In this document: positions 2,730 through 47,165 of the stretch, in pieces
Position numbering within the stretch: the stretch's first letter is position 1
Layout: every line of letters starts with the position of its first letter
Made by a program: the position numbers and the translations under genes
Notes under the pieces: model-generated
The model's input: the letters and a program-made list of their open reading frames with translations, nothing else
Database searches by the model: none
What the model was told of the DNA's origin: nothing
Assembly (NCBI RefSeq): GCF_003946095.1
Contig: NZ_RHOD01000013.1
Span: 1 to 64,000, forward strand
DNA length: 64,000 nt
Source: Levilactobacillus lindianensis
Lineage (GTDB): Bacteria > Bacillota > Bacilli > Lactobacillales > Lactobacillaceae
Direction: 5' to 3'

Positions 2730-3086
2730 TTAATGTTGAAACATTCCAACAACCCAGCTGAGCGCAACCAGTAGGGGAAAAATCAGCCACCAATTCTGCG
2801 AAAGAAATTCCCAGCCATTCATCGGTCGTTGTCCCTCTGGCAAAGTTTTCACTGTCTTGTAAGACTGTTCTTTAGTCTCTGCTACTTGGCCCCCGACTAG
2901 TTCATTCAGATCCACTTGCAAGAGATTGGCCAGCTTCACAACTGTAGCCAAATCCGGTGATGTTTCACCCTGCTCCCACTTTGAAATCGACTGTCGTGAC
3001 ACGAATAGTTCATGAGCGAGTTGTTCCTGTGACAGATTCTGCCGGCGTCGCAATTTTACCAACTGCTGACGAAACATATTCTCCAT
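2730..3086 (-). CDS. XRE-family transcriptional regulator with C-terminal membrane segment
   Basis: The 118-residue protein has an N-terminal helix-turn-helix of the Cro/CI type (about 8-62, with LSQEQLAHELFVSRQSISKWE as the recognition part) and a single hydrophobic segment near the C-terminus (about 97-114). The layout suggests a membrane-tethered DNA-binding protein. A GGGG site precedes the ATG, and a TATGAT -10 box lies upstream on the minus strand. The target is unknown; no adjacent gene forms an obvious operon with it. Confidence 0.85.
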   Translation of the reverse strand: MENMFRQQLVKLRRRQNLSQEQLAHELFVSRQSISKWEQGETSPDLATVVKLANLLQVDLNELVGGQVAETKEQSYKTVKTLPEGQRPMNGWEFLSQNWWLIFPLLVALSWVVGMFQH

Positions 3087-3333
3087 GCTCTCATCCCCTT
3101 TTGCTTAAAATTATCATACCTGAAACACCGCGGGCTTCCTGCGAACAAAGTCGAACATCACGCTCTTTGCCCGGGCTAGTTGCGCCCGTATCACGGGCAG
3201 AACGGGTTGCAGATCCTATGATAACGGCATTTGTCTCAACTATTCTCTTTATCAATCACGGTAAGCAATCAGGCGTTAGTTTCCGTTAACAACGGAACCA
3301 ACGCCTGATTTTTGATCACTATGCTCATGTTGC
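3087..3333. other. Intergenic region with an orphan plus-strand terminator
   Basis: There is no protein gene here. It contains the minus-strand promoter region of the XRE gene, GC-rich inverted repeats (GCCCG/CGGGC near 3159-3200) and, at 3267-3313, a long near-perfect hairpin with a T run on the plus strand. The closest upstream plus-strand gene ends at 2516. Confidence 0.5.
3267..3313 (+). terminator. Orphan Rho-independent terminator
   Basis: The stem AATCAGGCGTT / AACGCCTGATT encloses a second stem (TTCCGTT / AACGGAA), followed by TTTTT. It points in the plus direction although the neighbouring genes on both sides are on the minus strand, so it may end a small RNA. Confidence 0.65.
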
Positions 3334-3452
3334 CGAAACGTGCGGAAAAGGGCAGTCAACTCCGCTTAACCCCGATAGTCACACAATCCAAAACCAGGAT
3401 TGTCCGACTATCGACGTTAATGCTCATTGACTAATCGCCCTTTTCCCCACTC
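3334..3452. repeat. Copy A of a covarying 120-nt hairpin element
   Basis: The whole element folds into one long interrupted hairpin: GTGCGGAAAAGGGC with GCCCTTTTCCCCAC, AGTCAA with TTGACT, GATAGTC with GACTATC, ACAATCC with GGATTGT, and an AAAACCA loop. It aligns without gaps to copy B at 31494..31612. The unpaired blocks TCCGCTTAACCC and TCGACGTTAATGCTCA are identical in both copies, while the stems differ with compensation. It lies directly after the S9 peptidase stop codon. The strand of any transcript is not known. Confidence 0.8.
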
Positions 3453-3454
3453 TC

Positions 3455-5419
3455 TTATTTTTGAACTGACGGATGCGCATCGAACCACGCCGTCATATCA
3501 TCTAACCGTTGCACGCGCAGGCTCGGTAGCCCATCACGTGAGACCCCATGGAAGCTCTGCGGGTAGCGAATCATATCGGCATCGACGCCGTGGCGTTTAA
3601 CCGCGGTGAAGAATTCCTCAGACTGGCTGATGGGACAACGCATATCCCACTCGCCGTGTAACAAGCGAATCGGGGTCGTGACATTCTGGGCATAAGCCAG
3701 TGGCGAACGTTGCCAATATTCACTCACGCCACCCTCATCGAAGAGATCCCCGGCCAATTCATCCGGATTGAAGTAAAACCCAATATCACTGGTTCCAAAT
3801 AGGCTAATCCAGTTGGTCACAGACCGTTGGGCAACGGCGGCCGCGAAACGTGCCGTATGACCTACAGCCCAGGTGGTCATGAAGCCTCCGTATGATCCGC
3901 CAGCGATGTACTGACGATCCGCATCTAACTCTGAGAATTTCGCAAGTGCCACGTCTAACCCACTCATCACATCGCGATAATCGTGTTCCCCATAATGACC
4001 GATCACCGCATCCTGGTAGGCTTGACCATAGCTGGTTGAGCCCCGTGGATTGAAGAAGACCACGCCGTACCCGCGACTAGCGTGCACCTGAAATTCATAG
4101 AAGAACGTTTCCCCATAGTTGGCATGCGGTCCTCCATGGACGTAGAGCAGGACTGGCGTCTTCTTGGCGGTCGTTTGAGCCGGCAAGTACCACCCTTCCA
4201 GATCTTGGCCATCCGTGGCTTCAAACGTAAAGTGTTGGGGGTGAGCGTACTCATGGGTATCTTCATAAGTGGCATTGGGATTCACTAGAATGTGTTCGTT
4301 GCCCTCACTCAGCGTATGCCGAACCAGCAGGCTAGGTCGATCCTGAGCAGAAACGGCGAGCACAACGGCATCATCATCGATAACGGCAAAGTCGACAATT
4401 TCTCTAGGCTGATCACTCAGCAAGCGGACCTGCCCGCCATCCCCCACGTAAAGTTGGCTACGACCATGAAAGGCGGCGGTGAAGACGAAGCGCTGGCCAT
4501 CCAGCCACTGGGCCAATTTACCACTCGGATTTTGGGTGAAGTCGGCCGCAAATTCCGGCACCGGATCAGCATCCAACGACGCCGTCTGGTTGACTAACTC
4601 GCCGGTCTCACGATTGGCAAGATAAACGTTAGCCACGGTATGTAAGCCATGCGAGCCATCGTTACCCACGATCAGGGCGCGACGACCATCCGCGGAAATT
4701 GTCGCATCCGCTACCTGACCCTTAAGACCACTAGTTAAGTCCGTCCATTCACGAGTCGCGGTGTCTAAGCAGTAGGCATGGCGCGTGAAGTCACGGTCAT
4801 CGTCCGGCTGGACATCTTGAATCACCGTGAGCCAGCGGCCATCCGCACTGGTACTGGTCAGGTCGAAGTCGGTTCCTTGACTCAAGACTTCCCGCAACTG
4901 ATCCGTCTCTGGTCGATAGCGCCAGACCCGGTAGGTGACTTGGTGTGGCAACCAGCCATGACCATCGGCCTTATTAATCAGGCGAGAAACGTGACGCGTT
5001 TGCGGAAAGTCCTCGGCATTTAAGAATTTCGGTTGTTCCGTAGTTTCGGTCGTTTTGAAAAAGATGGTCTGTTGATCGCCACTCGCAAGTACCGTGCTGA
5101 CGGCCTGTTCCGGCATTAAGACCGTCACCGCCAGTGCTTCGCCACCATTGAGTGACGTGGTAAAAAGCTGCGGCTTGGCCTGCCCAACTTTGGCCGCAAA
5201 GTAAAGGTGCTGACCAGCTACAGCCGGTTGGGTATTCTGCTCTCCGACACTTCCCGCGGTCCAGGCTTCACCACCACTCACGCCGCGAACCACTGATCGA
5301 TAGCCGTTGCTGGCCTGATCGACGCCATTCTCCACGAAGAAGATCCGATCGCCGGCCACGACCGGTTGTGTGATTGATTTTAGGTTAAATAAGTCCTGTG
5401 CTTGCACGCTCTGGGTCAT
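3455..5419 (-). CDS. S9 family peptidase (acylaminoacyl-peptidase type)
   Basis: The protein has about 654 residues with the two-part layout of prolyl-oligopeptidase-like enzymes: an N-terminal beta-propeller-like half and a C-terminal alpha/beta-hydrolase half beginning near the VHGGPHANYGE oxyanion motif. The nucleophile Ser is in GGSYGGFM, the Asp in HGEWDMRCP and the His in SFHGVSRDG. There is no signal peptide, so it is a cytoplasmic peptidase acting on small peptides, fitting with the Opp transporter and PepF elsewhere in the window. The ATG at 5419 has a GGAG site; an upstream in-frame ATG lacks one. Confidence 0.9.
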   Translation of the reverse strand: MTQSVQAQDLFNLKSITQPVVAGDRIFFVENGVDQASNGYRSVVRGVSGGEAWTAGSVGEQNTQPAVAGQHLYFAAKVGQAKPQLFTTSLNGGEALAVTVLMPEQAVSTVLASGDQQTIFFKTTETTEQPKFLNAEDFPQTRHVSRLINKADGHGWLPHQVTYRVWRYRPETDQLREVLSQGTDFDLTSTSADGRWLTVIQDVQPDDDRDFTRHAYCLDTATREWTDLTSGLKGQVADATISADGRRALIVGNDGSHGLHTVANVYLANRETGELVNQTASLDADPVPEFAADFTQNPSGKLAQWLDGQRFVFTAAFHGRSQLYVGDGGQVRLLSDQPREIVDFAVIDDDAVVLAVSAQDRPSLLVRHTLSEGNEHILVNPNATYEDTHEYAHPQHFTFEATDGQDLEGWYLPAQTTAKKTPVLLYVHGGPHANYGETFFYEFQVHASRGYGVVFFNPRGSTSYGQAYQDAVIGHYGEHDYRDVMSGLDVALAKFSELDADRQYIAGGSYGGFMTTWAVGHTARFAAAVAQRSVTNWISLFGTSDIGFYFNPDELAGDLFDEGGVSEYWQRSPLAYAQNVTTPIRLLHGEWDMRCPISQSEEFFTAVKRHGVDADMIRYPQSFHGVSRDGLPSLRVQRLDDMTAWFDAHPSVQK

Positions 5420-42383: not shown

Positions 42384-42719
42384 TCGCCGTTCCTTCTTCA
42401 GTCATCACTAACAATCTAAGTGACAAGCTAGTCCCCCGCTAATGCCAGCGAACTATAATTAGTGTTCATTTTGGCCCTTCAAAAACCATAATGCAACTGC
42501 TAAAAACACAGCGATTTCGCCGGTTAAGACCCCGTTCTAATTATCTTGGTGATCATGCCATCTGAATCTGAGTCTTAGAGTTTCCACCCAAATTAAAAGT
42601 AGTACCAACGAATTTTTTCGTCGACACTACTTTTCAATTTATCCATTAACAACCAGTTAGTCTGAATGCCACGATACCGTGGCAACCCCCGGTTAGTTTT
42701 GACTTTCTCATCCACTCTA
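42384..42719. other. Intergenic region upstream of the deaminase gene
   Basis: There is no gene. It has a bidirectional hairpin at 42596-42635 and a short perfect hairpin TGCCACG-ATAC-CGTGGCA at about 42667-42684 next to the three-hairpin element. Confidence 0.5.
42596..42635. terminator. Terminator-like hairpin
   Basis: AAAAGTAGT pairs with ACTACTTTT around an inner stem (CGA/TCG), with T runs in both directions. No gene ends next to it. Confidence 0.5.
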
Positions 42720-42903
42720 GCCGGAGGAGGCCAGGGATGGAGCCGGCCGTGGTGGTACTGTTAGACCGAGTGTTTTTCTCGGCCTTACAGTACCGGGCGA
42801 CTTTGAAGACTCGCGTCTCTGGCGGGGCTTCAAATCGAGCGAGAAGCCCAGAGGGCTGAAGCGTCCCCACAGCAGGCGTAATCCCTGGCAGCCGCAGGCG
42901 GCC
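42720..42903 (+). repeat. Three-hairpin intergenic element, copy 3
   Basis: It runs from GCCGGAGG to GCCGCAGGCGGC. The closing stem CCAGGGAT / ATCCCTGG encloses three hairpins: GGTACTG-TAG-CCGAG with CTCGG-CTTA-CAGTACC, CTTTGAAG with CTTCAAA, and GAAGCCC with GGGCTGAAGC. The hairpin order and boundary motifs match copies 1 and 2, while most stem sequences differ. Confidence 0.75.
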
Positions 42904-42936
42904 AATCTCACGCTAACATTCGATTTCAAAGAGATC

Positions 42937-42963
42937 AAAAAAACCGGAGTAACCACGCTCCGG
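42937..42963 (-). terminator. Terminator of the candidate 270-nt RNA
   Basis: CCGGAG pairs with CTCCGG around an 8-nt loop, followed by seven T on the minus strand. Confidence 0.85.
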
Positions 42964-43206
42964 CTCCCAGTTAGCAGCTTTGAGTCGCAACGTTTTCACC
43001 GTTTGTAGTCAGGAAATCGCTGTTCTCTCAGGCTTGCTAGACCTCAATATGTAATCTTTATTGAGCAACTCTACCCGATCAGGTTGGGAACCCGGTCGAG
43101 CCATTAAAGTAACTCTCATCATGACGGTAAGGGTCACTTCACAAAGTTGAGACTCCGCAGAACTTCCACATTCTACGACTTCTCTGAAGGATTGATTGGT
43201 ATTACA
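42937..43206 (-). ncRNA. Candidate CcpA-regulated small RNA (about 270 nt)
   Basis: It has its own promoter (43213-43240) with a perfect cre box, no plausible protein frame with a ribosome site, and a terminator with seven T. Inner hairpins include CTCAATA with TATTGAG and ACCGGGT with a GATCGGGT partner region. It lies downstream of the two-kinase operon on the same strand. I see no hallmark of tmRNA, RNase P, SRP, T-box or known riboswitches. Confidence 0.6.
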
Positions 43207-43212
43207 TTCATT

Positions 43213-43249
43213 AGTATAGCAGACGCCTCTAGAATTGCAAGCGTTTTCA
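43213..43249 (-). promoter_or_regulatory. Promoter with cre box of the candidate 270-nt RNA
   Basis: TTGCAA and TGCTATACT are separated by 16 nt to the TATACT hexamer, with an extended -10 TG. TGAAAACGCTTGCA (43236-43249) overlaps the -35 box and fits the cre consensus TGWNANCGNTNNCA at all positions. Confidence 0.75.
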
Positions 43250-43326
43250 GGAATGAAACGATAACTGTTTTTCTGTGAAACCAGTTGACCAGTCTATCTG
43301 ACTTTGTGAATCATTCAAGCCTTGGG

Positions 43327-44649
43327 TTATCCCTTCGGTAAGGCTACCGTTAATTGGCCCCAGTGTCGCTTTAATTTCAGTGTGCTCGTGGCACTCGTCG
43401 GGAGCACATGCTGCAAACGAGATAAGTCTAACTCGGCCTGATTACTCTTGACGTGACTCTGTCCGTCCACTTGCGCATCATCTGGTACTGGAAAGATAAT
43501 TTGAAAGCGAACCAGCTGCGGCGATTCTTCCAGATCCAGCGTGACCACGGTTGGCGATAGATGTTTCACCCCTTGAATCAGTGGCGGGAGCGTCCGACTT
43601 AGCAGCGTCCCCATCAATTTGAGCGTCGTGATCGTCGCGGTCAAGGGTTCCGGAACCTTGATAAACAGCTGAACCCCGGCCTCCTGCGCCAATAAGTAGT
43701 TGTGATAGACATCGAAACGCAGGCTGGCACTGGGAATATTGGAGAGATCGTCAATCGTCAGTTCCGCCGCGTTACTGGTCTCCCAACCCGAACGAATATC
43801 GATATACAGCTGGCGAAAACCGTCATAATCCCGATCTTCAAGGTAGCCTCCTAGTCCCAACAACATATTTTGATAGTCATGGCTAAACTTACGAATCGCG
43901 CCCATTTGACGGTTCAGTTCACTGGTATACTGCTCCCGAAATTCCTGCTGTTGGCGTTGAAGTTGCGTGTGCTCTTCTTGCAAATGGGTCAACATCAACA
44001 TATAGGTACTTAGTGAGAGCCCAATCAACAGGGTTCCCGCCACTCCCGTTAAGAAAATCAAATAGTGGTCAGAATCGGCCAACTCCTGTAGGGAGTATTC
44101 GAAAAGAATGTAGACTAACGCAATCCCCGTCATAAAGATCAAGAAGAGGTATTCCATGGAACGTCCCACCATAGCCTGGATAAGATTTTCCATCGGCGCT
44201 CGCGTCAGCCACAGTCCCATTCCAATCAAGGTAAAGAGCACCGCATCGATCGTCATTCCCGTCAGCGTCCCCCACCAACTCGTCGCAAAGTTCAGACTGG
44301 TGAGCCAAATAGTCCCGTTAAGCACGACCATATCCACGAATTCCGTCAAGAGATACGCCATAATCGTCACGTCAATAAAGGCCGGCAAGTATTGCCACTG
44401 ATGGTCCTTGGCGAGGAGTGCGACTTCGATGACTAACATGACCACGACCGCCAGCGCACCTAGCAAAGAACTCCGTGCGGTGAAGGGGTTGAAGATATCT
44501 AAGAGGGTAAACCCAATCGCCATCCCCGCGCAGTACGTGAGAAAGTGTTTCTGCCGCAATTCTGGAAACCAGTAATACTGGAAGTAAACAAACCAAAAAA
44601 TCAGTGTGAAGTCAGCCACCGCAAAGCTCCAGATACTCACTGTAATCAT
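43327..44649 (-). CDS. HPK10-type sensor protein with His box but no ATP-binding boxes
   Basis: The 440-residue protein has about six to seven membrane segments (residues 1 to about 215), a coiled linker and a dimerisation helix with the phosphoacceptor motif FSHDYQN (near 256), as in AgrC/PlnB kinases. The GHKL ATPase region is degenerate: where the N box LLDNAIEA should be it has LLSRTLPPL, and no G box is present in the last 80 residues. Alone it cannot bind ATP in the usual way. It is the third gene of a regulator-kinase-kinase operon, 4 bp after the first kinase, with its ribosome site inside that gene's end. It probably acts as the phosphoacceptor partner of the 44654..45973 protein. 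Confidence 0.85.
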   Translation of the reverse strand: MITVSIWSFAVADFTLIFWFVYFQYYWFPELRQKHFLTYCAGMAIGFTLLDIFNPFTARSSLLGALAVVVMLVIEVALLAKDHQWQYLPAFIDVTIMAYLLTEFVDMVVLNGTIWLTSLNFATSWWGTLTGMTIDAVLFTLIGMGLWLTRAPMENLIQAMVGRSMEYLFLIFMTGIALVYILFEYSLQELADSDHYLIFLTGVAGTLLIGLSLSTYMLMLTHLQEEHTQLQRQQQEFREQYTSELNRQMGAIRKFSHDYQNMLLGLGGYLEDRDYDGFRQLYIDIRSGWETSNAAELTIDDLSNIPSASLRFDVYHNYLLAQEAGVQLFIKVPEPLTATITTLKLMGTLLSRTLPPLIQGVKHLSPTVVTLDLEESPQLVRFQIIFPVPDDAQVDGQSHVKSNQAELDLSRLQHVLPTSATSTLKLKRHWGQLTVALPKG

Positions 44650-44653
44650 GTGC

Positions 44654-45973
44654 TCACCTCCCCGGCTTGGTCAAAATCACGGTAAAGTACAGCATGCCGC
44701 GTTTTATCGCCACCTGTAGCGCCGCGTTCTTGGTCCGGTCAATCAATTCTTTCACAGTACTCAGACCTTGACCGTGACCATTTCCCTTGGTGGTATAGCC
44801 CGCCCCCATGAAGCGGTTAATCTTAGGCGGCGTCAGCGTTGAGACCGGGTTGGCCACGGCGATCTCGTAGGCGTCTGGATAGGCTAAGATCGCGCAGTAG
44901 ATCTCCGATCGATCGCCAACGGCTGGTGCCTCAATGGCATTGTCCAATAGAATGCCCACAATTCGTAACAGATCCATGCTGGCCATCGGCAAACTGACAA
45001 TCGCTTCAGGAATCTCCAGGTGTAAATTACGACCCCGATTCTGGGCGGCTAAGATCTTCTGAAACAACAGACTCTTCAGCGCCGGATCACCCAATCTCTG
45101 GAGACCATCTGCCTCGAGGCCCGCCAAGTGACTCGTGGCCTGCCAGCGCTGGTTTAAGGTCTCGTAATAGGTGGCCAACCCTTCGTAGTCGTTTGCATCC
45201 AAATAATCCCCCAGTTGTAGCATCTGCTTCTGATACGTTTGTTTAAACTGACGAATAGCCTGTACCTGATCAGAAATCCGGCGATCATAGCGCGTTCGTA
45301 ACAGCGTTTCTTGATACTTCGCCCGCATGCGCTGGCGAGAAAAGAAACTCTGGAGAAAACCAAAGAGACTCGCCGAGATCAGTAGAACCATGACCAGTTC
45401 AATACTCAGAGAAAAGGTCAGCATGGCGTGCGAGATCTGTAGGTGGTGAATGATCAGCGACGACATTTCCGCTAACACCGTCAGGCTAGCCAACATCGCC
45501 ATCACCGTCCACTGCTCCTTACGACTCAATGCCAACTTGGTTAGATTCCCCGGTTGAATGTGCATCCCAGATACCGCTAAGGAGATCAGACTATAGATAA
45601 AGATTTGAAAGAATAGCCGCGCCGTGATGGCCGAAACGCTGTCGGCAATCCGCCGACCCCAGAGTTCAATGGCCACCTGCCGCGTCACATCGTTGATCAG
45701 GACGACCACTAGAAAGATCACAATCGTGGCGTTGACAAAAATCAACGCCAAATGCCGGATCAAATAGACCAAGGCACTGATTGGCGGAATGAGGAGACTC
45801 CACGGCTCACCAATAAAGGCTGGGATTAACGCCCAACCGACCCACTTCAAGGGTAATTTCCAATTTTGGGGCCGAATGAGCCCAATCCAAATCGTGAGGA
45901 ACCACTGCATGGTCATGGCCAGCACGAAGTTCGTCCAAAACTGACGTCCGAATAGCTGTAACACGGCGTCCAT
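44654..45973 (-). CDS. HPK10-type sensor kinase with ATP-binding boxes but no phosphoacceptor His
   Basis: The 439-residue protein has about six to seven membrane segments, a dimerisation helix and a complete GHKL ATPase domain: N box LLDNAIEA (near 344) and G box GNGHGQGLSTV (near 402). In the H box the His is replaced: FKQTYQK (near 242) stands where its partner has FSHDYQN. It should bind ATP but cannot autophosphorylate on the usual His. The ATG at 45973 follows AGAGGG. It is encoded 12 bp after the response regulator. A heterodimer with the 43327..44649 protein, phosphorylating it in trans, is the simplest reading. Confidence 0.87.
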   Translation of the reverse strand: MDAVLQLFGRQFWTNFVLAMTMQWFLTIWIGLIRPQNWKLPLKWVGWALIPAFIGEPWSLLIPPISALVYLIRHLALIFVNATIVIFLVVVLINDVTRQVAIELWGRRIADSVSAITARLFFQIFIYSLISLAVSGMHIQPGNLTKLALSRKEQWTVMAMLASLTVLAEMSSLIIHHLQISHAMLTFSLSIELVMVLLISASLFGFLQSFFSRQRMRAKYQETLLRTRYDRRISDQVQAIRQFKQTYQKQMLQLGDYLDANDYEGLATYYETLNQRWQATSHLAGLEADGLQRLGDPALKSLLFQKILAAQNRGRNLHLEIPEAIVSLPMASMDLLRIVGILLDNAIEAPAVGDRSEIYCAILAYPDAYEIAVANPVSTLTPPKINRFMGAGYTTKGNGHGQGLSTVKELIDRTKNAALQVAIKRGMLYFTVILTKPGR

Positions 45974-45985
45974 CACTGCACCCTC

Positions 45986-46744
45986 TTAGGATTTTAAATG
46001 CTTTTGTACTAACGTTTTAACCTCATGGAAGCGCCGAGTAGCCACGTCTGTCTCGTCCCCATTAGGAAAAACCAAGCGGCGCGTTTCCGAGTCAATGCCA
46101 CTAACATTGTCAAGATTAACTAGAAAACTCTTATCGGTTCGATAGAGTTCCGGATACTGATCGGCGATATCTTTCAAAAAACCAGGAAATTCCACCAATT
46201 GATTGACCGCGTGCACCATGACCTTATGGGGCGTCTCCGCGGTAGCGACGAAGTATACGTCGCCCATCGGCAGGCTGAAAGTCCGGCCGCCAATGTTATA
46301 ACTAAAGAGGTTCTCGGTATTGCCGAGGTAATTGGTATAGCGTTGATACCCATAGTCGACGTTTTCACGCAACTTTTGGTCAATCTGAGTGCGCCCCAGG
46401 TCCTTGACCACGAAATCCATGGGCTCCACCTTTCGCTCGAAGGTCAGCAAAGCCATTTCAGAATGCGTGGTGACGAAGACAATCTCCGCAAAACCCAGCA
46501 GCTTTCTGATGGCAATGGCTGTCTCTAGTCCACTCATCTTCTCTGCCGGAAATTCGATATCGAGGAAGAACAGGGCATACTCTGGCGGATTTGCCTGGAG
46601 ATTTTCCAGAAGTTCTTTAGGGCTGGGCGTGGCCAGATTAACCACCATATCATAGTCATTAATCATGATGTAGCGCTTAATCACGTCCTTATAGTGCTGT
46701 AACTGTTCCAGATTATCTTCACAGAGGTATACGGCTAACATCAT
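45986..46744 (-). CDS. LytTR-family response regulator (AgrA/PlnC/ComE type)
   Basis: The 252-residue protein has an N-terminal receiver domain with the acidic pair Glu9-Asp10, the phosphoacceptor Asp62 in FFLDIEF and the conserved Lys in VVKD near residue 117. A C-terminal LytTR DNA-binding domain follows (about 145-250, RTDKSFLVNLDNV). This type binds pairs of 9-bp direct repeats and usually controls peptide-pheromone regulons. I use the ATG at 46744, after AAAGGGTG. It leads the three-gene operon; no AgrB-like processing gene, ABC exporter or clear pheromone gene is seen next to it. Confidence 0.92.
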   Translation of the reverse strand: MMLAVYLCEDNLEQLQHYKDVIKRYIMINDYDMVVNLATPSPKELLENLQANPPEYALFFLDIEFPAEKMSGLETAIAIRKLLGFAEIVFVTTHSEMALLTFERKVEPMDFVVKDLGRTQIDQKLRENVDYGYQRYTNYLGNTENLFSYNIGGRTFSLPMGDVYFVATAETPHKVMVHAVNQLVEFPGFLKDIADQYPELYRTDKSFLVNLDNVSGIDSETRRLVFPNGDETDVATRRFHEVKTLVQKHLKS

Positions 46745-46788: not shown

Positions 46789-46817
46789 AATATATATTGA
46801 ATCGTGACGACTTGCAA
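46789..46817 (-). promoter_or_regulatory. Promoter of the regulator-kinase-kinase operon
   Basis: TTGCAA and TATATT are separated by 17 nt on the minus strand. The -35 box lies inside the first of two direct repeats. Confidence 0.7.
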
Positions 46818-46821
46818 TCGT
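46797..46821 (-). promoter_or_regulatory. Direct repeats, candidate LytTR operator
   Basis: ACGATTGCA and ACGATTCAA lie 16 nt apart start to start, overlapping the operon promoter. The shape fits LytTR targets; autoregulation is an inference. Confidence 0.5.
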
Positions 46822-46831
46822 TTTACTCACA

Positions 46832-46863
46832 CAAAAAAGGAACTATCCCCTCAGATAGCTCCC
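46832..46863 (-). terminator. Terminator upstream of the regulator operon
   Basis: GGAGCTATC pairs with GATAGTTCC, followed by six T on the minus strand. Confidence 0.8.
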
Positions 46864-47165
46864 AATCCGCATGGATTATTTAATTTGGTGCTGGCTAAAT
46901 TAGCACTCCCCCAAGTTCTAATTAAGTCGTCAGATACTGCTATACACTTACTCTTCAGTCACTGCTGAAAGTCTTGCTACTAGCCATCCTAAGCATCTGA
47001 CGATGATTGCGTTCTACCAAGCCGCCATGTGATTAGATAATCTCAGGTACGATCCAATCAATATCCCCTAATGTCGTGTTAATCACGCATACTTTAATTG
47101 ATTGATTCGCAAAATCAGTTTCCGTAAAACTGACCCCTTCCAACTGTTATCACTTTACCATGTTC
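46832..47165 (-). ncRNA. Candidate leader or small RNA upstream of the regulator operon (about 330 nt)
   Basis: A possible promoter (TTGACG at 47195-47200, TGATAA 18 nt later) is followed by about 330 nt and a terminator. Inside are hairpins such as CAGTTTTACGGAAACTG and GCTAATTTAGC. The only short frame (36 codons from a TTG) has no ribosome site. It could be a terminated leader or an independent RNA; the regulator gene has its own promoter further down. Confidence 0.45.

Follow-up and report, generated by a model that had tools for sequence, protein, structure and literature searches.

How can a sensor kinase signal when its phosphoacceptor histidine and its ATP site lie in two different proteins? 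The question is raised by a minus-strand operon in the window, by which we mean the whole stretch of 64,000 nucleotides (nt) of Levilactobacillus lindianensis analysed here (contig NZ_RHOD01000013.1, positions 1 to 64,000; features whose coordinates are written with two dots are on the minus strand). The operon runs from a LytTR response regulator gene of AgrA type (45986..46744) through two genes for AgrC-type kinases, K1 (44654..45973) and K2 (43327..44649), to a non-coding region. In our view this is quite likely a sensory system built on a split kinase, similar in its working to Fas of streptococci, with an RNA as its output. K1 would be the ATP-competent subunit without a phosphoacceptor His, in a role like that of FasB, and K2, whose ATPase domain is degenerate, the phosphoacceptor subunit, in a role like that of FasC.

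The regulator matches PF04397 and PF00072, carries its phosphoacceptor Asp62 in the motif LDIEF, and matches the AgrA model below that model's cut-off; K1 and K2 both match the NCBI AgrC model, far below its cut-off. Each kinase has the HPK10/AgrC-type architecture of a polytopic N-terminal membrane domain, a DHp domain and a GHKL ATPase domain, the last being in K2 a predicted fold only. An earlier note on this DNA had described one LytTR regulator followed by two adjacent, translationally linked kinases of 440 residues each, the first without the His and the second without the ATP site. The kinase motifs are where that note placed them. K1 measures 439 amino acids (aa) from its ATG and reaches 440 only from a GTG at 45976, and the kinase genes, adjacent as described, are separated by 4 nt without overlap.

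To these genes we added their counterparts from 33 congeneric loci, giving with the window a set of 34 Levilactobacillus loci. They provide 34 K1 rows and 41 K2-type rows, an 81-aa piece of the K2a gene of locus L065 being left out. A phosphoacceptor His together with N and G boxes in one protein marks the HPK10/AgrC type; here 29/34 K1 rows lack the His, and all 41 K2-type rows lack the boxes. The note had suggested looking for the same pair in related genomes; the complementary pattern is found in all 34 loci, which rules out chance or an assembly or sequencing error as its cause.

In Pfam, K1 hits PF14501, a GHKL ATPase family (E 5e-9), and it has an N box, LLDNAIEA (44927..44950), and a G box, KGNGHGQGL; both boxes are kept in 34/34 K1 rows. 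K1 carries IRQFKQTYQKQML, with Gln245 (codon CAA, 45239..45241) in the phosphoacceptor column of the alignment, where K2 has His257. That column holds Gln in 24 K1 rows, Arg in 5 and His in 5, position +1 is never Asp and position +4 never Asn. K2 carries RKFSHDYQNMLL, an HDxxN-type motif with His257 (codon 43879..43881) within FSHDYQN, and HDYQN is present in 41/41 K2-type rows. At the N-box position K2 reads LLSRTLPPL (43579..43605); a G box is absent, and Pfam gave no HATPase match at E≤1. We looked for relatives in which each of the two genes has an intact His and intact ATP boxes and found none: 0/41 K2-type rows have an N or a G box. Used as a query in its own genome, K2 found only itself and K1 at E≤0.001.

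The structure model of K2 (mean predicted local distance difference test score, pLDDT, 72) has AgrC structures as its best matches in the Protein Data Bank (6e52, E 7e-8), and its C-terminal domain superimposes on the AgrC ATPase domain 4bxi with a root-mean-square deviation of 2.2 Å over 154 columns (TMt 0.74). Because of these matches, K2 probably retains a GHKL-like fold from which the nucleotide-binding residues have gone.

With K2 as query, 34 of the 35 genomes of the genus gave a relative; the exception (G008) is a genome that is 72% complete. K1 and K2 are both present in 34/34 loci. By longest open reading frame (ORF), their genes are 4 nt apart (21 loci) or overlap by 4 nt (8 loci) in 29/34. 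The regulator is intact and adjacent to K1 in 30/34; one exception lies at a contig edge (L037) and another has a split regulator frame (L066). At L040 (6670-8803) a transposase gene sits within the regulator gene and both kinase frames are open, and at L054, from L. brevis CD0817 (2790-4620), regulator and K1 are separated by two transposon genes that resemble TnpB and TnpA. There is more to the locus than two kinases: 7/34 loci have a third kinase gene, and a conserved structured RNA lies behind the operon in 34/34. In the seven loci with three kinase genes (L060-L066), the first and second K2-type copies do not each form one clade in the tree.

Both kinase genes, the dead ATPase domain of K2 included, are under purifying selection. 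Mean pairwise identity in the 27 two-kinase loci was 81% for the K2 DHp domain, the highest value among the six domains, 60% for the K2 dead domain, 75% for the K1 DHp domain and 70% for the K1 ATPase domain. The ratio of nonsynonymous to synonymous substitution rates (omega) of the K2 dead domain was 0.016-0.095 over 13 close pairs. For all domains together 73/78 values were computable and all were below 0.1, with 5/78 undefined and several synonymous divergences (dS) near saturation. The omega values rule out a reading of these genes as pseudogenes. In the alignments used, 6/41 K2-type rows lie outside the K2 alignment and 5/34 K1 rows outside the K1 alignment.

The candidate effector is a conserved structured small RNA with a terminator (42937..43206), in a position like that of FasX. 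A sequence pattern located it in 31/34 loci, and a covariance model built from these recovered the other three (L052, L053 and L059). The element is 261-277 nt long across loci and begins 106-129 nt past the stop codon of the last kinase gene in 34/34, the loci with a third kinase gene included. In the consensus structure 14/39 pairs are changed on both sides. The structure was derived from the alignment used for the covariation test, which favours it; none of 500 column shuffles attained its values for paired cells (95.5%), covariation score (0.322) and both-sides-changed cells (79), whereas the 14 both-sides-changed pairs were reached in 5/500 and the 41 further pair types in 33/500. Six slid versions of the structure all scored far lower.

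The RNA model found one full-length copy in 34/35 genus genomes, which are exactly those with K2; two of them also have a weak partial match. A search of 251 family genomes under stricter filters gave full-length matches only in the 12 Levilactobacillus genomes included; the other 239 genomes of the family had none of full length, and one weak partial match was seen elsewhere. There was no Rfam match at E≤1. The RNA is not 6S RNA, which lies at another place in the genome. A peptide encoded in it was also considered and rejected: no start position that opens a frame of at least 20 codons is common to more than 11/31 rows.

Before the RNA we read the putative promoter TTGCAA, a 16-nt spacer and TATACT (43213..43240), and TG-N-TATAC precedes the RNA in 34/34 loci. 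Overlapping the -35 is TGAAAACGCTTGCAA (43235..43249; one exact copy in its own genome), which is cre-like; its core CGCTTGCA is present in 32/34 loci. Upstream of the promoter lies the box TTCACAAAGT (43301..43310; 26/34 loci, TTCACAA in 33/34), a candidate regulator site. A LytTR direct repeat was sought by eye before the RNA promoter, and none was convincing. The TTCACAAAGT box, which stands behind the K2 stop, has its complement within the RNA in ACTTTGTGAA (43138-43147; 17/31 rows, core TTGTGAA in 27/31); this complementarity could possibly reflect RNA-RNA pairing or a shared protein site.

We propose that K1 and K2 are membrane subunits of AgrC type, made from one operon, that would pair through their DHp helices and sense a signal together. 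The ATPase domain of K1 likely phosphorylates His257 of K2 in trans, judging from the motifs and from Fas. K2, which has the sole full HDYQN, would then hand the phosphate on to the regulator, at Asp62, and may also dephosphorylate the regulator when free or unstimulated. The phosphorylated regulator would most likely switch on transcription of the RNA of ~270 nt as the main output, like FasX. The first two steps, with ATP used by K1 and His257 provided by K2, are well supported by comparison; for the RNA step, position and precedent are the arguments.

The Fas precedent is experimental. According to the Fas paper (PMC12675982), the FasC substitution H246A abolishes FasX and streptokinase, FasC residues 1-286 are sufficient, the kinase domain being dispensable, and plasmid-borne FasB H241A still complements. 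The same paper reports a FasB-FasC signal and no homodimer signal in two-hybrid assays, phosphorylation of FasA on D60, and FasX as the RNA effector; its authors allow for FasB H284 as a second phosphorylation site and suggest that FasB is the phosphatase (PMC12675982). We would place the phosphatase on K2 instead, because its HDYQN fits the phosphatase motif H[ED]xx[NT] described for CheA3/CheA4 (PMC3591291) and K1 is without it. The earlier note had gone as far as an obligate heterodimer in which one subunit phosphorylates the other, a single sensor in two genes. Heterodimer and trans-phosphorylation survive as the best explanation, with FasB/FasC as precedent (PMC12675982), but 'obligate' goes beyond the evidence, and 5/34 K1 rows have a His.

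Several observations weigh against the mechanism proposed. K1 has a His in 5/34 species, at two places on the K1 tree, and in these five K1 may be able to phosphorylate itself. The structure model of K1 is poor (pLDDT 61). The scheme does not account for the second K2-type gene of 7/34 loci. The conserved cre-like element at the RNA promoter may suit control by CcpA as well as control by the regulator. If the kinases act as proposed but the RNA belongs to a separate gene under CcpA-type control, the overlap of that element with the -35 and the missing clear direct-repeat LytTR box would both be accommodated; we regard this as the most serious of the alternatives and still as rather unlikely, given the constant place of the RNA behind the last kinase gene, kept even where a third kinase gene intervenes, the absence of full-length matches from the 239 family genomes of other genera, and the precedent of FasX.

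The other alternatives concern the kinases. K1 might be the only catalytic sensor, phosphorylating an unusual residue of its own or the His of another kinase, with K2 as an accessory sensor or scaffold. The five His-bearing K1 rows would suit this, as would FasB H284 and the accessory proteins of other kinases named in the Fas paper (PMC12675982). We think it improbable, however: HDYQN is invariant in K2-type rows, whereas Q, R and H all occur in the K1 column, whose His cases at two places on the tree indicate drift, the K2 query revealed no third relative in its own genome, and in Fas the H246A change in FasC is fatal to output (PMC12675982). The pairing of K1 and K2 is argued from sequence and analogy, and it is conceivable that the two work apart, K2 as homodimers that are phosphorylated by an unrelated kinase or by acetyl phosphate and act in phosphotransfer, and K1 elsewhere; yet one operon with its 4-nt spacing or overlap, joint presence in every locus and the purely heterotypic two-hybrid signal in Fas (PMC12675982) make this very improbable. 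That one or both kinases are decaying leftovers is barely credible. The broken K2a gene of L065 (the first of its two K2-type genes, in pieces of 81 + 377 aa), the transposase-interrupted regulator of L040 and the split regulator frame of L066 might point that way, each in one locus of 34, but the kinase frames are open in the other 33 loci, omega is below 0.1 in 73/78 cells, and the same residues are lost throughout.

Does the arrangement occur elsewhere? In 397 family genomes, the full-length K2 matches among those listed were all from Levilactobacillus. No complementary pair was seen in 20 loci around weaker family matches, where the kinase frames have the His (one 77-aa fragment aside) and where the motif scan found no N box in L113; an apparent loss of His in L107, L168, L169 and L186 in a first motif scan was rejected when alignment showed the His to be present. 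An order-wide search of 395 genomes, together with 147 Streptococcus genomes, did yield complementary pairs. Loci L266-L269 have, by resemblance, the order tRNA-synthetase gene, FasB, FasC, FasA, gap, rnpA, and in L266 FasB (448 aa, His at 241 and 284) and FasC (427 aa, His 246) agree with the numbering of the Fas paper (PMC12675982). The aligned phosphoacceptor residue of FasB in L266 is Ser254. FasB-type rows (10, from 8 genomes) have His at that place in 0/10 and have N and G boxes, and FasC-type rows have the His in 10/10 and a G box in 0/10; an N box is kept in 4/5 FasC rows and in 0/5 rows of a second streptococcal His type. The motif table holds the streptococcal kinases without L269, L271, L275 and two L273 kinases. 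The genus-wide loss in Levilactobacillus and the missing aligned His in 10/10 FasB-type rows together suggest that ATP subunits of FasB type need no phosphoacceptor of their own.

Further complementary sets go beyond a pair. In streptococcal loci L232/L235, L273 and L274, four AgrC-type kinases resembling two complementary pairs precede one regulator. In two genomes of another family (L233 5314-10683 and L234 12299-17714), one ATP-only kinase and four His-only AgrC-type proteins share an operon with one regulator; several of the His-only proteins are shortened to membrane and DHp parts, and an intact kinase-regulator pair lies alongside. Judged by these motifs, the arrangement in Levilactobacillus is not unique: Fas works likewise, and comparable sets occur in other streptococcal loci and in that further family.

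These splits do not appear to descend from one ancestor. In a tree of 62 rows, K1 and K2 group together (support 94/77) beside the intact kinases L095 and L097 (99/97), and the streptococcal split kinases group with intact streptococcal kinases (100/100). An earlier tree, without L035, L045, L048 and L057, set K1 and K2 against the rest with support 83/39. Approximately unbiased (AU) tests rejected a single clade for K1 with the FasB type (p 4e-6), K2 with the FasC type (4e-32), all ATP-only kinases (4e-79) and all His-only kinases (2e-53); a clade uniting FasB with the other streptococcal ATP type was neither shown nor rejected (p 0.51). Orthology of K1/K2 to FasB/FasC is thus rejected by the trees. 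Independent, convergent origins of the Levilactobacillus and streptococcal splits are likely. We stop short of calling them proven because branches are long, groups were defined after a first tree, and K1 and K2 are joined with support of only 94/77 and 83/39. Most likely a single intact kinase was duplicated and the two copies then lost complementary parts, in a course of events separate from that in streptococci. The ATP-only L233 kinase stands beside its intact neighbour (94/48), the one branch from which a third origin is argued; such an origin is possible, and is the least secure.

We lean, by a little, towards a more general statement: that complementary AgrC-type splits recur, with at least three independent origins in the order (Levilactobacillus, streptococcal Fas and the multi-kinase cluster of the further family), the first two with a dedicated small RNA, because separating ATPase from phosphoacceptor/phosphatase would give a switch-like response and would let phosphoacceptor subunits multiply under one ATPase. 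Such multiplication is seen in 7/34 Levilactobacillus loci, with a second phosphoacceptor subunit, and in L233, with four. The independent repetition, if true, turns a curiosity into a rule on kinase diversification, and the absence of His in ATP subunits makes their need for none a testable point. As far as our literature searches show, three things are new: complementary loss throughout the genus Levilactobacillus, the RNA linked to it, and evidence for repeated origin of such pairs. No earlier report of this operon was found in titles and abstract openings on such pairs, Fas, CheA3/CheA4 and lactobacillar small RNAs, the last being partly uninformative because the genus name was absent. The split architecture is now found in easily studied food bacteria (Levilactobacillus), and a structured RNA without an Rfam match is added to it.

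The flanks of the operon offered a few further features. Upstream of the regulator gene, a putative element AAAACGATTGCAA (46812..46824) resembles the RNA-promoter element. A structured element (46835..47160; fold z-score -3.5) with a terminator hairpin at its end separates the operon from the gene upstream, and a segment of it, CTTGGGGGAGTGCTAA, recurs in most but not all of 18 aligned rows. In the intergenic stretch at ~42700-42956, mechanically called ORFs match a few genus loci; it is perhaps a dispersed repeat.

How does this locus compare with known systems? Staphylococcal AgrC, AgrA and RNAIII involve the same kinase and regulator families, and there too the RNA effector adjoins the operon. 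Staphylococcal AgrC is one intact kinase, unlike K1 and K2. Neither agrB nor agrD was noticed among the neighbours compared, in which no dedicated search for them was made. GacS/RetS and RocA-CovS differ in that the kinase which the partner modulates is complete on its own. What both have in common with K1/K2 is a kinase plus a partner protein, and the Fas paper names them as such, a kinase with a modulating partner (PMC12675982). CheA3/CheA4 of Rhodobacter sphaeroides have the ATP domain on one protein and phosphoacceptor and phosphatase on the other; neither autophosphorylates alone, and modelling indicates that the split can give switch-like responses (PMC3591291). CheA3/CheA4 belong, however, to the chemotaxis family, miss whole domains and use a separate phosphoacceptor domain, whereas K1 and K2 keep the full architecture and lose residues.

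Fas, whose genes are named in four other streptococcal species in the Fas paper (PMC12675982), is the closest parallel. It differs in gene order, which is kinase-kinase-regulator-RNA in Fas and regulator-kinase-kinase-RNA in Levilactobacillus; in its FasC, of which most rows keep an N box whereas K2 is without N and G boxes; and in descent, K1/K2 not grouping with FasB/FasC in the AU tests. The heterotypic kinase interaction was shown in Fas, whereas pairing of K1 with K2 is deduced here from sequence. The Levilactobacillus RNA model had no match in the streptococcal loci searched, a missing match being weak evidence for RNAs. Shared by the two are a pair of AgrC-type membrane kinases, one ATP-only and one His-only, and an AgrA/ComE-type regulator in one operon, with a separate small RNA gene directly behind it, as in 34/34 Levilactobacillus loci.

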